The translations under genes and the position numbers were made by a program. From Thermoplasmata archaeon (lineage in GTDB: Archaea > Thermoplasmatota > Thermoplasmata > SG8-5): a DNA stretch of 11,304 bases. The notes below the pieces were generated by a model. That model had not been told where the DNA came from. It searched no databases and worked only from the letters and a program-made list of their open reading frames with translations. Position 1 is the stretch's first letter. Every line of letters begins with the position of its first letter. Positions 2,988 to 10,794 of this stretch are shown here, piece after piece. Where the stretch lies: positions 1 through 11,304 of the forward strand of contig JAUSPR010000249.1 in NCBI GenBank assembly GCA_030655715.1, in the 5' to 3' direction.

Positions 2988-3119
2988 TTATTAACCTCGG
3001 GGTGGGTATTGTCACCTTATAGATAATATATTTGATATTACTAACAAATAATATATACTCCCTATAAAATACACCTTGAGTACATCAAAACTACATTAAA
3101 ACGTATTAAAGGTGGAACT
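2988..3119. promoter_or_regulatory. Divergent promoter region between purA and the RHH-alpha/PAC2 operon
   Basis: This AT-rich 132-base spacer carries outward signals. On the plus side, TATAAAAT at 3063-3070 would start transcription near 3090, followed by a GGTGG ribosome-binding site at 3111-3115. On the minus side, AATATATTATC around 3022-3032 would start transcription near 3000, just before the GAGGTT site of purA. A second AT-rich run (3046-3058, AAATAATATATAC) could serve either direction. Because the first plus-strand product has a DNA-binding domain, autoregulation here is plausible, but I found no clear inverted-repeat operator. Confidence 0.5.
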
Positions 3120-3848
3120 ATGGCGGAATTAAGAGTGATACTCCCCGATGATGTGGACCGGTATCTGGAGAGCGTGATAAGGTCGGGCATGTTCGGCAAT
3201 AAGGCCGAGCTGGCCAGGGCCGCAATAGTCCAATTCCTCAATACCATTGGCCCGATTTCCAAGGGCTATGACACCGAGACCTCATTCTCCCCGGACGGTA
3301 GGATTTACCAGTTGGAGTATGCGCGAGAGTCAGTCCAGCGCGGAAAGCCGATCGTCGGAATGATTTGCAATGACGGCGTGGTCCTCGCGACTGTGAATCC
3401 GACCGAAGGTGCCGATGCCCTGCTTGTCGCGAGTTCCTGCATCAGAAAGATATCCGATAATATTGTCATAGGTTATTCCGGGTTAGCCGTCGATGCAATG
3501 ATGGTCATGGATAGCTTGAAGCCACTGGACCTCAAGACCGAGGAAAAGGTTATTTCAGCCATCAGGGAAATATACTGGAACCACACCCTGAAGCGGGACA
3601 CCAGGCCGCTGGGCGCGAGCCTTCTGGTGGCCATGTGTTTCACCAGGCCAAGATTGTTTGAAGTTGAACCAGGCGGCATGATTACCGAGTGTGTTGCAGG
3701 CGTTATCGGCTCGGGAAGCGCATCCTCCAGAGTCTCACTTTCAGGTGAGTACAAGAAAATGCCGATAAAAAACACCGGAAAGCTTATCGCGTCCGTTCTG
3801 GGCGAGGGAAAGGAATATGCCGTAGAAACCTTACTGGTTGCTGATTGA
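3120..3848 (+). CDS. Ribbon-helix-helix domain fused to a proteasome alpha-subunit-like domain
   Basis: A 242-residue fusion. Residues 3-43 fit a ribbon-helix-helix (CopG/Arc-like) DNA-binding domain: a strand (Glu-Leu-Arg-Val-Ile-Leu), Pro-Asp-Asp, a helix, a Gly/Asn turn and a second helix with Ala-Glu-Leu-Ala-Arg-Ala-Ala. From residue 49 it becomes proteasome alpha-like. It has Gly-Tyr-Asp, then Phe-Ser-Pro-Asp-Gly-Arg-Ile-Tyr-Gln-Leu-Glu-Tyr-Ala at 56-68, Ser-Gly-Leu-Ala-Val-Asp-Ala at 120-126, Arg-Pro-Leu-Gly at 162-165, Pro-Arg-Leu-Phe at 177-180 and Gly-Ser-Gly at 197-199. Lys110 aligns by eye with Lys66 of Thermoplasma alpha, which binds HbYX tails. The gating Tyr-Asp-Arg is Tyr-Asp-Thr here, and the C-terminal part is about 30 residues shorter than usual. 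No catalytic N-terminal Thr is present, so it should be non-proteolytic. It has a good GGTGG ribosome-binding site and lies 14 bases before the PAC2 gene. It is probably a paralogue of the housekeeping alpha subunit; its function is inferred. Confidence 0.88.
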   Translation: MAELRVILPDDVDRYLESVIRSGMFGNKAELARAAIVQFLNTIGPISKGYDTETSFSPDGRIYQLEYARESVQRGKPIVGMICNDGVVLATVNPTEGADALLVASSCIRKISDNIVIGYSGLAVDAMMVMDSLKPLDLKTEEKVISAIREIYWNHTLKRDTRPLGASLLVAMCFTRPRLFEVEPGGMITECVAGVIGSGSASSRVSLSGEYKKMPIKNTGKLIASVLGEGKEYAVETLLVAD

Positions 3849-3862
3849 AAGGAGATGAAAAC

Positions 3863-4633
3863 ATGAAAGATGACATTGAAATCATTGAAAGAAAGGAGTT
3901 TAACGTAGAAGGCGCAGTTCTGATTGAGGGTTTCCCCAGCGTGGGAATGGTAAGTTCCATAGTCTCGAACTATCTTATCAAGGTACTGAATATGGAATAT
4001 ATTGGCTCGGTGCGCTCCAGACATTTCCAGCCCACTGCTATTATCGCGAACGGTGTGCCAATGCCGCCCGTGAGAATTTACTCCGGCCAGCCAATCGAGA
4101 AAAAGGACTGCATCTGCGACCGTCTGGTAGTCCTGACATCGGAATTTCCACCGCCAATCGAACTCATGGCACCTATGGTCGATAAAATTCTTGAATGGAC
4201 AGCCCAGAAGAAAATAAAAACAGTCATTTCTGTCGAGGGCATAATCAATGAGAGCAAAACCCAGGACCAGCACAGCACCTATGCCATTGCCTCAACTCCC
4301 GCTGCCAGAAAGATACTGGAGAGCAAAAAGATCACACCTCTGGAGAACGGAATTATCACAGGAATTTCAGGAGTTCTTCTGCATGAGGCCGAAAGAACCG
4401 GAAGAGACGTAATTTGCCTGCTGGGCGATGCCAATCCACAGATACCGGACGCCAGGGCCGCAGTGCGACTCATCGAGGTTCTGGACGGTTTCCTGCCCAA
4501 GATAAAGCTTGATACCCAACCCCTGATTAAGGAGGCTGAACGCCTTGAAGGCCAGCTGAAGGGGGCCCTGATGCAGGCACATGCGATGAACAAGCCAGGG
4601 CAACAGGAGCCGGCTCCGGTTATGTACGGTTGA
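3863..4633 (+). CDS. PAC2/DUF75-family protein (proteasome assembly chaperone-like) with a HbYX tail
   Basis: A 256-residue member of the PAC2 family, which includes eukaryotic Pac1/Pac2 and archaeal PbaA/PbaB proteins connected with proteasome assembly. It shows Glu-Gly-Phe-Pro-Ser-Val-Gly-Met at 22-29, an Ile-Ile-Ala-Asn-Gly-Val-Pro segment, Ser-Glu-Phe-Pro-Pro-Pro, and a later Gly-Ile-Ser-Gly-Val-Leu-Leu loop. The end is a helix followed by a Pro/Gln-rich flexible tail finishing in Met-Tyr-Gly. That fits the hydrophobic-Tyr-any (HbYX) motif by which proteasome partners dock between alpha subunits. I chose the ATG at 3863 because AAAGGAGAT lies about seven bases upstream; a TTG at 3845 overlapping the previous stop is much less likely. 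It is co-transcribed with the RHH-alpha gene. An assembly or docking partner of that ring, or of the normal 20S alpha ring, is the natural inference. Confidence 0.9.
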   Translation: MKDDIEIIERKEFNVEGAVLIEGFPSVGMVSSIVSNYLIKVLNMEYIGSVRSRHFQPTAIIANGVPMPPVRIYSGQPIEKKDCICDRLVVLTSEFPPPIELMAPMVDKILEWTAQKKIKTVISVEGIINESKTQDQHSTYAIASTPAARKILESKKITPLENGIITGISGVLLHEAERTGRDVICLLGDANPQIPDARAAVRLIEVLDGFLPKIKLDTQPLIKEAERLEGQLKGALMQAHAMNKPGQQEPAPVMYG

Positions 4634-8341: not shown

Positions 8342-9211
8342 TTAAGCTCCTATCATCGCAACCAATTCCCCAACTTCCTGAGAAGACATCCCCATAATCG
8401 GGTAGAAAACCGGCACAACCAGTCCTTCGGTTTCAGACGAGCGTTTATCAAATGTTTCGACATCCCAGCCGAGGCAAACGCCGTCCGTACGCCTCTTCCT
8501 GGCAATGGTGGCAATGTCATCCGAGCCGTCAAGTACATGAGTCAGGGGTTCAGGGTTCCAGGATTCCAGGGGCTTGAGCAGTGAAATATCATCTGTGGCC
8601 ATTATAACGGTGCATCCCCTTTTCATTACTAGCCAGCAAGCGGCAATGTCTTTTTCTTCCCTGACAATGCCAAGCACGCGGCCCTGCGTTCCGAGCGGCA
8701 TTCCCCCGGGCCCGGAAATGTTTCCGGTGTAAACATAGGCACGATTATTCCTGACATCCACGAAAATCTCGAGTTCGGGATTTGTCAAGTCCACTTTCGG
8801 TTGAAGATGCTCATTTGCCAGGAAAACTGCCGAACCGGTTTCCTTTGCAATCTCCATGCTGGTAAACTTATGCTCACCGCTCCTTCTGGCCCTTATGCAG
8901 AACCTCAAACCCTTTTTAAATAACGGCTTGGAAATATCCACAGCCAGGTTGTATATATCATCGGGCTTGGATGTGGTTTCCAGTACCTTGCTGAATGATA
9001 CTATTCCGAAAGTCCTTGCCAGAACCCAGATTGCATAATCCTCGTTGTCAGCCCACAAGAAAATTCTGCCACGCTCGAATTCCAGGCGGCACTCCTTTCC
9101 TGACTTGATAAAACGGGAGGTGATATTGCTGCCCAGCGTCCTTTCGAATCTGCTCCTGACGCGAGGACTTTTGAGTGCAATTTCACCGTATCGTATCATG
9201 AATAGGGCCAT
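8342..9211 (-). CDS. ThiI-like NFLD-THUMP protein with degenerate PP-loop domain
   Basis: A 289-residue relative of ThiI, the tRNA 4-thiouridine/thiazole sulfurtransferase. The N-terminal ferredoxin-like domain opens with Ile-Arg-Tyr-Gly-Glu-Ile-Ala-Leu-Lys-Ser, and the THUMP RNA-binding domain spans about 76-165. The linker Gly-Pro-Gly-Gly-Met-Pro-Leu-Gly-Thr (about 167-175) is as in ThiI. The expected Ser-Gly-Gly-x-Asp-Ser ATP loop reads Val-Arg-Glu-Glu-Lys-Asp-Ile, while the next helix (Ala-Ala-Cys-Trp-Leu-Val-Met-Lys-Arg-Gly) stays ThiI-like. The rest is diverged and ends early at Met-Ser-Ser-Gln-Glu-Val-Gly-Glu-Leu, where typical ThiI proteins continue. ATP-dependent tRNA adenylation is therefore unlikely; tRNA binding may persist. 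I chose the start at 9211 by homology; ATG 9238 and GTG 9265 are in frame, but the latter probably lies upstream of the transcript. No clear ribosome-binding site is present. Confidence 0.85.
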   Translation of the reverse strand: MALFMIRYGEIALKSPRVRSRFERTLGSNITSRFIKSGKECRLEFERGRIFLWADNEDYAIWVLARTFGIVSFSKVLETTSKPDDIYNLAVDISKPLFKKGLRFCIRARRSGEHKFTSMEIAKETGSAVFLANEHLQPKVDLTNPELEIFVDVRNNRAYVYTGNISGPGGMPLGTQGRVLGIVREEKDIAACWLVMKRGCTVIMATDDISLLKPLESWNPEPLTHVLDGSDDIATIARKRRTDGVCLGWDVETFDKRSSETEGLVVPVFYPIMGMSSQEVGELVAMIGA

Positions 9212-9414
9212 GTGGGAAGAAAAGCGCGATTCGAACATAAGCCTACCGGTCAATGTATGATGCACTGATATTGAAAATTCATAAAAATATCAAATCACTT
9301 GCATTTACCTGGATGAAGAAGTATCAATTAACAATAGAAAAACTATATTAAAGGTGTCAGCAATCCATTTTCAACATAGTGGGCATTATCAGAGTGTGAA
9401 TTGGCGGTCAATGT
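9212..9414. promoter_or_regulatory. Divergent promoter region between THUMP and zinc-ribbon genes
   Basis: On the minus side ATATTTTTAT (9281-9290) predicts a start near 9258-9262, upstream of ATG 9238 and ATG 9211. On the plus side TATATTAAA (9344-9352) predicts a start near 9371, about 44 bases before the zinc-ribbon gene. CGGTCAATGTATG occurs exactly at 9247-9259 and 9405-9417, near the beginnings of both genes; one such match is expected by chance in a window this size. Confidence 0.45.
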
Positions 9415-10794
9415 ATGGCAAGAAGGGGGCATACAGCAGAAGGCAAGATATACTGTTCGGAATGCGGTTCCGGTATAGAATCTGGCTCGGACAATTGTGA
9501 ACATTGTAGCGAGGCCTTAATCGACGATTTCGAGGCCATTATTTGTCCCTATTGCACAACGGTTGTACCAGCAGAATCTGGCTCATGCACCAATTGCGGG
9601 TTGAAATTTGTCTCCGAAAAGAAAGGCCGAGCCAAGGAGGATGATGAGTTCCTGTCCAAGCTTCTTGAATGGGGCAAGAATCTCGAAGCAAAGCGTATCC
9701 AGGAAGATAAGCAGGAAACCGAGACAGCCACCAATATTTTTAAAGACGTTGTGGGCAGCATTACACCCACACCATTTCAGGAAGAGACGCTCAAGCAAAT
9801 CAAGCAATCCGCTGATGAGAGAGATGAGTTCGAGAAGCGCGAGGAAAGCATCCTCAAGATGGCCGAACCCCTGAAGAAGGCGCTTGACCTCAGAAAGAAG
9901 GCGCTTGACGACCTGGAAATTAAATTCAAATCACTACAAGGGGAGCTGGAAAATCTCAGTCCGGAAGACCTGGATTCTGACAGAAAGCGCAGCGACTTGG
10001 AGAGGCAACTAGCTGAAATCATTGTCGAGAGAAGTACGATTAACAATCTGGAAGATAATATCAACAACATGGATTCTGCTTACAGGCAACTTCTTAAACA
10101 ACATTCCGCAGAAATTCAAGAGAAGGAGGAGAAACTGAACACCAGGTTGAGCACCTTCAAGAAAGAGATGGAACGTCGAGAAACGGAGAAGGAAAAGCTC
10201 AAGACCAGAGAGGAATTTTTGGAGACAAAGGAGAAAGAACTGGTCGCGCGAATAAACTCGCTGAGGGAAAGAGAGAACAGCCTCAAGCGGACAGAAGATG
10301 AAATGAAGAGAGAGATTGCCACGCTTAAAGCCGAGAAAGAGGGCGTTGAGGAACTGAAAAAACCAATTGAAAATTATATTGCTACAAAGGGAAAATGGAT
10401 TGTGGACGAGGGGGAGCTGATCAACATTCTTAAGAAATCCAAGAAGGTTCGCGATGACTGGCTTGACGAACAGAGGAAAATTCAAGAGGCAATGGACAAG
10501 GATGAGCCAGCCGGTATTGCCGCGGCCGAGAGCGGTGAAAGACTTGATGGTCGTGAACAGGAACTCCAGAAGAAAATTGGCGAACTTGAGAAAAAATTGG
10601 CTGAAACCATTTCCGAGGAACAGAGCCTTAAGAGGGAAGAGAAGGAAATTGGCATTGATATGGAGCGATTGAAGAAAGTATTAAAGGTCTTGGACGATTT
10701 ACTGGAAAATTTGCCAGAGGATGTGGTGGAGAATTTCGCCAAATCCGAGAATTACAAGGAATATGATGAGTTGATGCAGGAACTGGGTTTATAG
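9415..10794 (+). CDS. Double zinc-ribbon, long coiled-coil protein
   Basis: A 459-residue protein of unknown function. Two zinc ribbons of identical layout occupy the N-terminus: Cys14, Cys17, Cys28 and Cys31, then Cys44, Cys47, Cys58 and Cys61, each Cys-x2-Cys-x10-Cys-x2-Cys. A linker (about 65-120) follows, with a short non-helical Ser-Ile-Thr-Pro-Thr-Pro segment near 115-120. From about 125 to 445 the protein is highly charged and heptad-like (Leu/Ile with Glu/Lys/Arg), predicting a long coiled coil broken near 320-340 and by a Pro-Ala-Gly segment near 363. No signal peptide, transmembrane helix or Walker motif is seen, so it is not an SMC or Rad50 ATPase. It shares an operon with another coiled-coil protein only eight bases downstream. 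A scaffold or adaptor role, with ribbons binding nucleic acid or protein, is inference. Confidence 0.88.
   Translation: MARRGHTAEGKIYCSECGSGIESGSDNCEHCSEALIDDFEAIICPYCTTVVPAESGSCTNCGLKFVSEKKGRAKEDDEFLSKLLEWGKNLEAKRIQEDKQETETATNIFKDVVGSITPTPFQEETLKQIKQSADERDEFEKREESILKMAEPLKKALDLRKKALDDLEIKFKSLQGELENLSPEDLDSDRKRSDLERQLAEIIVERSTINNLEDNINNMDSAYRQLLKQHSAEIQEKEEKLNTRLSTFKKEMERRETEKEKLKTREEFLETKEKELVARINSLRERENSLKRTEDEMKREIATLKAEKEGVEELKKPIENYIATKGKWIVDEGELINILKKSKKVRDDWLDEQRKIQEAMDKDEPAGIAAAESGERLDGREQELQKKIGELEKKLAETISEEQSLKREEKEIGIDMERLKKVLKVLDDLLENLPEDVVENFAKSENYKEYDELMQELGL

Follow-up and report, generated by a model that had tools for sequence, protein, structure and literature searches.

Why would an archaeal genome encode a protein in which a ribbon-helix-helix (RHH) DNA-binding domain is joined to the fold of a proteasome alpha subunit, and what could such a protein do? 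The question is raised by a gene on contig JAUSPR010000249.1 of a Thermoplasmata archaeon (SG8-5; assembly GCA_030655715.1). The window referred to here is the whole stretch of DNA that was analyzed, 11,304 nt in length.

The RHH-alpha fusion and its relatives

The fusion of an RHH domain with a proteasome alpha-type subunit, proposed in a preliminary description of the sequence, was confirmed: an RHH domain of about residues 2-43, with a strand-helix-helix fold, is followed by a flexible linker and by an alpha-type fold that carries its N-terminal signature (Table 1). The further claims that the DNA-binding module takes the place of the axial gate and that the gating Arg is lost both proved real. 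The gate peptide with YDR is replaced by the RHH domain and linker, and R10 is kept in 1 of the 40 fusions that were compared, residue by residue, with 24 canonical alphas (L154, L075, and identical rows were left out). No Pfam RHH model matched the window protein (P0001), and Foldseek on the RHH model gave matches that were not significant by E value. Its relatives do match RHH profiles: Pfam RHH_1 matched 8 of 45 relatives and 11 of 20 N-terminal pieces, and the CdrS model matched 10 of 20 such pieces.

The fusion is not the only alpha-type gene of its genome (G000). Three PF00227 genes are present, namely, the fusion, psmA (L002; 332 bits against an NCBIfam curated cutoff of 287), and psmB (L001; 262 bits against a cutoff of 224), and the window protein itself reached 90 bits against the archaeal alpha equivalog TIGR03633 (curated cutoff, 287). 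Since ordinary psmA and psmB are also encoded, the fusion is a third paralogue. A canonical alpha with a merely variable gate was rejected as a reading because psmA and psmB exist as separate genes. Five further fusion genomes had 3 to 4 PF00227 matches each, with at least one canonical alpha in each.

Table 1. Positions of the fusion gene, its parts, and the adjoining features in the window
Feature	Positions	Strand	Basis or remark
TATA-like stretch	3051..3057	+	sequence
Left arm 3, TACAC	3070..3074	+	predicted operator
Left arm 2, TACAT	3081..3085	+	predicted operator
Left arm 1, TACAT; adjoins dyad at 3098/3099	3092..3096	+	predicted operator
Right arm 1, ACGTA (TACGT on - strand)	3101..3105	-	predicted operator
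Right arm 2, GTGGA; overlaps likely ribosome-binding site	3112..3116	-	predicted operator
Right arm 3, GCGGA; within codons 2-3; weakest arm of the family	3123..3127	-	predicted operator
RHH-alpha fusion gene, 242 aa	3120..3848	+	relatives share the same architecture
RHH domain, residues 2-43; helices 10-21 and 28-42; E3 and R5 on N-terminal strand	3123..3248	+	
Linker, residues 44-57; pLDDT <50 at 47-55	3249..3290	+	predicted structure
Proteasome alpha-type fold, residues 58-239; without H1-H2 loop, C-terminal part shorter	3291..3836	+	
PAC2-family gene; 4-nt overlap with fusion gene; product ends M-Y-G (HbYX-like)	3845..4633	+	

The family is patchy in Thermoplasmata, Bathyarchaeota, and Hermodarchaeota and probably has a single origin. 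Matches beginning at residue 1 were found in 15 of 61 genomes (the window's own and those of relatives). An RHH+H0 profile matched 11 of 389 genomes sampled from the window's phylum at E ≤ 4.6e-36; the canonical alphas were well separated, appearing only at E ≥ 1.3e-10. In the phylum to which a Bathyarchaeota member belongs, 3 of 398 genomes matched this profile; in that of a Hermodarchaeota member, 2 of 227 did, one with a very diverged protein. Names of lineages were taken from record titles. The fusion is also encoded in two records titled Aciduliprofundum (L056 and L057), a cultivated genus. Alignment A1 comprised 45 fusions from 120 homologues listed out of 2339 found, canonical alphas among them. 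In a tree of the alpha domain only, 34 fusions were separated from all other sequences by a single branch (bootstrap/SH-aLRT, 93/75; recovered in 91% of bootstrap trees); this tree was built on 60 of 79 rows, after the long branches L154 and L045 and 17 further rows, thinned from among near relatives, had been dropped. A quick tree of all 79 rows gave the same grouping with a support of 77. One origin is thus favoured by these sequences but not proven.

The very diverged RHH-alpha protein, L154 (G984:C58), comes from a 6.4-Mb genome and has a degraded signature, SSEGR...QVENA instead of SPDGR...QxEYA. Another diverged alpha-type paralogue, which lacks the RHH domain (MEMQPGQMAYDRASTVFSPDGR...), was seen in three genomes of one Thermoplasmata family (L151, L152, and L153).

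Repeated sites before the fusion gene

Half-sites of the TAC[A/G]T type precede the fusion genes at a spacing of exactly 11 bp and are often mirrored around a dyad. In 39 regions upstream of fusion genes, which are not independent because they are related by descent, pairs of TAC occurred 44 times at 11 bp, 20 times at 22 bp, and 6 times at 33 bp, and, at spacings other than multiples of 11, no more than 3 times each. Identity at lag 11 had a z score of 9.9 versus 1000 first-order Markov resamplings. A tandem T[AC]C[AGT] pair at 11 bp was found in 31 of the 39 regions (25 for a strict TAC pair) and in none of the 27 regions upstream of psmA or psmB, with either the lenient or the strict half-site. 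When a dyad with three arms on each side was scored, 29 of the 39 fusion upstreams reached 15 to 18 of 18 and 28 exceeded all 200 resamplings of their own sequence; the best of the 27 psmA/psmB controls scored 13.

The window region scored 18 of 18, with its dyad at -21, as in two near relatives. The same full score was obtained at the Hermodarchaeota locus, where the dyad lies 17 nt before the ATG. This distance of exactly 17 nt was shared by 19 of the 39 regions, including those of Aciduliprofundum and of three Bathyarchaeota-type loci, and the dyad lay at neither -17 nor -21 in the remaining regions. Given the position of the TATA-like stretch in the window, the transcription start would fall within the operator. 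Scores of 11 to 13, within the control range, were found for 10 of the 39 regions: the Bathyarchaeota-type L058, L060, L155, and L156; a subgroup of L051, L055, and L061; and L005, L009, and L163. Because all four Bathyarchaeota-type regions score so low, an operator is not established in these loci; by eye, they have kept the central palindrome and the right arms. With the exception of the Bathyarchaeota-type regions, repeated sites are present as a sequence feature at the fusion's own promoter.

Among 34 of the 39 regions, chosen for a clear dyad (L051, L055, L061, L163, and L154 were left out), successive arms left of the dyad were occupied in 30, 30, 28, and then 9 regions and those right of it in 33, 28, and then 6; these counts lean high because the regions were selected and because the L060 dyad was set by hand to -17, scoring having placed it at -10. 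Conservation is to be expected anyway where the right arms overlap the ribosome-binding site and start codon; the left arms lie clear of both. This conserved operator, which the preliminary description had not noticed, lends support to its suggestion of a DNA-tethered regulator; as a whole, the interpretation given there is partly supported.

Readings of the fusion as a regulator or a proteasome subunit

An RHH domain in place of the gate, together with conserved matching sites before the gene, suggests that the fusion probably acts as a self-controlling gene regulator made from a proteasome part. We consider it likely that the fusion is an autoregulatory DNA-binding protein built on a duplicated proteasome alpha, with an RHH autorepressor and an alpha fold that oligomerizes or senses. 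The RHH domain would dimerize and read TMCRT half-sites (M = A/C; R = A/G), possibly through Glu3 and Arg5, and several dimers would lie next to one another along the same face of the DNA, at intervals of 11 bp, a helical turn. Bound around a dyad that spans the start region of the fusion gene, the dimers would shut this gene off and, together with it, the downstream PAC2 gene in the window's family. The alpha fold, best read as noncatalytic, would most likely multimerize the dimers from its flexible linker, providing cooperativity, and/or sense a proteasome-assembly partner. The architecture, the paralogy, the family, and the conservation of the operator sequence are shown here; binding of the protein to this operator, repression, and what the alpha fold senses are what we infer. 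Mean pairwise identity among the fusions was highest in H0 (71%) and the RHH domain (61%) and lower in the alpha body (39%), so that conservation is strongest at the DNA-binding end and the former gate base.

According to passages of one paper, archaeal RHH regulators often bind over their own transcription start and oligomerize along DNA, and the consensus described for F55 is a tandem repeat of 11 nt (PMC5569661). The fusion resembles NikR-type autorepressors, which have a C-terminal domain, and the small archaeal RHH regulators CdrS, SvtR, and F55 in its N-terminal RHH domain and in the repeated sites at its own promoter. It differs in carrying a proteasome alpha fold as its attached domain, in a TMCRT half-site arranged around a dyad, and in that its own gene and one odd site are the only targets found. 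A telling parallel is offered by haloarchaeal CdrS, whose binding sites in Haloferax are described as lying before psmB, panA, and a cdc48 gene (PMC8406309). The conservation of Glu3 (44 of 45 fusions, with one gap) and of Arg5 (all 45) also favors the autorepressor reading. Other observations speak against it. RHH strand positions 3, 5, and 7 contact bases and are typically hydrophobic (PMC5569661), but positions 3 and 5 are Glu and Arg here. Moreover, a second site near gyrB in five genomes is unlike a promoter, and 20 genomes showed no excess of other targets (see below).

Literature searches, mostly of open-licence papers, yielded no description of an RHH-alpha fusion, as was already the impression in the preliminary description, and the combination of a proteasome alpha fold, a DNA-binding domain, and sites before the own gene was not found described. 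The 22 families of Fuchs et al. (2021) are likewise prokaryotic paralogues of proteasome subunits but, according to the parts of that paper covering the search, were sought by conserved active-site residues; neither "ribbon" nor "DNA" occurs in its main text (PMC8665760). The family is real and conserved and appears regulator-like, with an operator readable from the genomes in Thermoplasmata and at a Hermodarchaeota locus. If true, the autorepressor reading would provide, to our knowledge, the first known case of a proteasome subunit fold used as a transcription factor domain, and it brings within reach of tests how assembly of the proteasome is sensed in archaea and what PAC2 chaperones are for when the 20S particle self-assembles.

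An unlikely elaboration, which would solve the symmetry puzzle posed by dimeric RHH domains on a seven-membered ring, would make the fusion a sensor of proteasome assembly. A seven-membered alpha-type ring would pair its RHH domains as three dimers with one left over, and two such rings would face each other across the dyad. Three dimers would match the three half-sites usual left of the dyad (30, 30, and 28 of 34 regions; a fourth in 9 of 34). An assembly partner, for example the PAC2 protein that is encoded alongside and has an HbYX end, would capture the ring and free the DNA, and the operon would be expressed. Both ring formation and PAC2 sensing are what we infer for this case.

In the window's family, PAC2 either overlaps the fusion gene or directly adjoins it (the window and L034-L039, the last cut by a contig end), and the six full-length products of these adjacent genes end in MYG. 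In loci L034-L065, PAC2 lies directly downstream in 6 of 32, and phmmer found none in the other 26, including L057 and L061, whose contigs end just past the fusion gene. PAC2 as a general partner was rejected, these six loci and the window all belonging to the window's family. The HbYX-like tail is not peculiar to fusion-adjacent PAC2, since unlinked PAC2 paralogues (L192-L221) also end mostly in MYG or YIG. The earlier suggestion that the fusion senses HbYX tails is weakened. In its favor, K66, which we take to be the Lys that holds the HbYX carboxylate, is retained by 33 of 45 fusions (7, the window protein among them, have Cys); against it, among the seven fusions with PAC2 directly downstream, inspected by eye, only L039 has Lys. 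Among the paralogues of these genomes, the fusion-adjacent PAC2 adds one more protein of the MYG type.

The PbaA/PF0014 tholos resembles this arrangement in that PAC2-family PbaA (PF0015) has an adjacently numbered partner, PF0014 (in part of PMC6992696), and, as a further telling parallel, Pyrococcus PbaA and PF0014 are described as rising together in heat shock (in part of PMC10746257). PF0014 as a homologue of the fusion was rejected, since the same account of the tholos reports no similarity of PF0014 to proteasome subunits (PMC6992696).

It is also improbable that the fusion is a true alternative alpha subunit, one that would enter 20S rings, alone or with PsmA, and tie proteasomes to DNA while the operator controls its dose only. 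With PsmA, the archaeal 20S alpha, it shares the fold, the YD...SPDGR...QxEYA signature, and what we take to be the gate cluster: D9, P17, and Y26 were invariant across the 40 fusions, and position 8 was Tyr in 25 and Phe in 15. G80, D84, R130, and G166 were kept in all 40 as well, and Bathyarchaeota and Hermodarchaeota fusions are closer to canonical alpha length, which likewise favors a subunit. It differs from PsmA in having the RHH domain and linker for a gate, without R10, and, in Thermoplasmata, in lacking the H1-H2 loop and part of the C terminus. Positions 97 and 103 of this loop, presumably an alpha-beta ring contact, were deleted in 32 of 32 Thermoplasmata fusions, whose alpha part spans 184 to 199 aa versus 226 to 241 aa in 25 of 26 canonical rows (210 aa in the other). 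Thermoplasmata fusions thus seem to have lost parts taken to dock on the beta ring, and the loop deletion would speak against a plain structural role in the 20S particle. The low identity of the alpha body and the coexistence of canonical psmA in the genome also argue against such a subunit.

Readings of the sites, and other neighbors

We think it quite unlikely that the RHH domain serves only for dimerization or as a new gate while another regulator binds the arrays. The strand, with Glu, Arg, and a hydrophobic residue, is unlike the usual set, and the window protein matches no Pfam RHH model, as this reading would have it. However, E3 and R5 are invariant, and the arrays accompany the fusion in several Thermoplasmata families and at a Hermodarchaeota locus and are otherwise at background. 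In G000, a three-unit array with at most one mismatch occurs only at the fusion gene. In 20 genomes, 18 of them with a fusion, the three-unit pattern (≤1 mismatch) had 26 matches, of which 15 sit at the fusion gene, in 10 of the 18 fusion genomes. The 11 matches elsewhere compare with 15 for the reversed pattern, which is no excess, and a second pattern gave none either (57 matches, own promoters included, versus 69 for its control, in the 20 genomes). A viral origin of the fusion was rejected: 15 pattern matches lay in viral contigs, none of which encodes a relative.

A ParR-like DNA organizer, in which RHH dimers on 11-bp repeats would form a centromere-like assembly and control of the own promoter would be a by-product, is very unlikely. 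ParR is typically an RHH protein, and that of plasmid R1 acts on direct repeats of 11 bp, needs at least two of them, and forms a solenoid with parC, according to part of PMC9426499. The fusion differs in its alpha-fold C terminus, and no actin-like or ParA partner was found among the 8 other window proteins and 10 scanned neighbors; the latter, from other fusion loci, were four MFS permeases, three proteins without a match, a GLUG-repeat protein, a DUF2330 protein, and a MazE-type protein. The organizer reading would fit a second operator-like site of 4 to 5 arms that five genomes of the window's family carry alongside the L40e gene neighboring gyrB (G001, G002, G003, G005, and G008; L242:2527, L243:2503, L244:2540, L245:706, and L246:2487). 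Its position is conserved and its flanks poorly so, and it lies 3' of the end of a PKD-domain gene in four genomes, the fifth contig ending there; these gene names were assigned on example loci. The site does not look like a promoter. G009 and G010 showed no such site, and the G000 and G004 contigs end within gyrB. An RNA gene at this site was rejected, there being no Rfam (gathering threshold) or tRNA match.

The least probable reading is that the element works as RNA, its central palindrome hiding the ribosome-binding site in a hairpin: although right arm 1 often holds the ribosome-binding GGAG in relatives (e.g., TCCATTAAAATGGAGG) and Bathyarchaeota show little beyond the central palindrome, the left arms have the same sequence and 11-bp period, which pairing alone would not need, and in L005, L007, L009, and L011 the dyad lies 44 to 90 nt before the ATG, off the ribosome-binding site.

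Additional observations concern single sites and genes. An exact match of the second pattern is present at G000 C86:21-45. A related three-unit site (TACRTTCTGCATACATTTTGTATACAM) occurs in an intergenic gap at L169:1501 and L187:1501 and is conserved in two genomes of a neighboring family (G011 and G012). Elsewhere in the window, positions 8342-9265 (- strand) encode a THUMP protein with a ThiI ferredoxin-like domain and no catalytic domain among the matches listed, and positions 9415-10794 (+ strand) encode a 459-aa protein in which a double zinc ribbon is followed by a long region that looks like a coiled coil.
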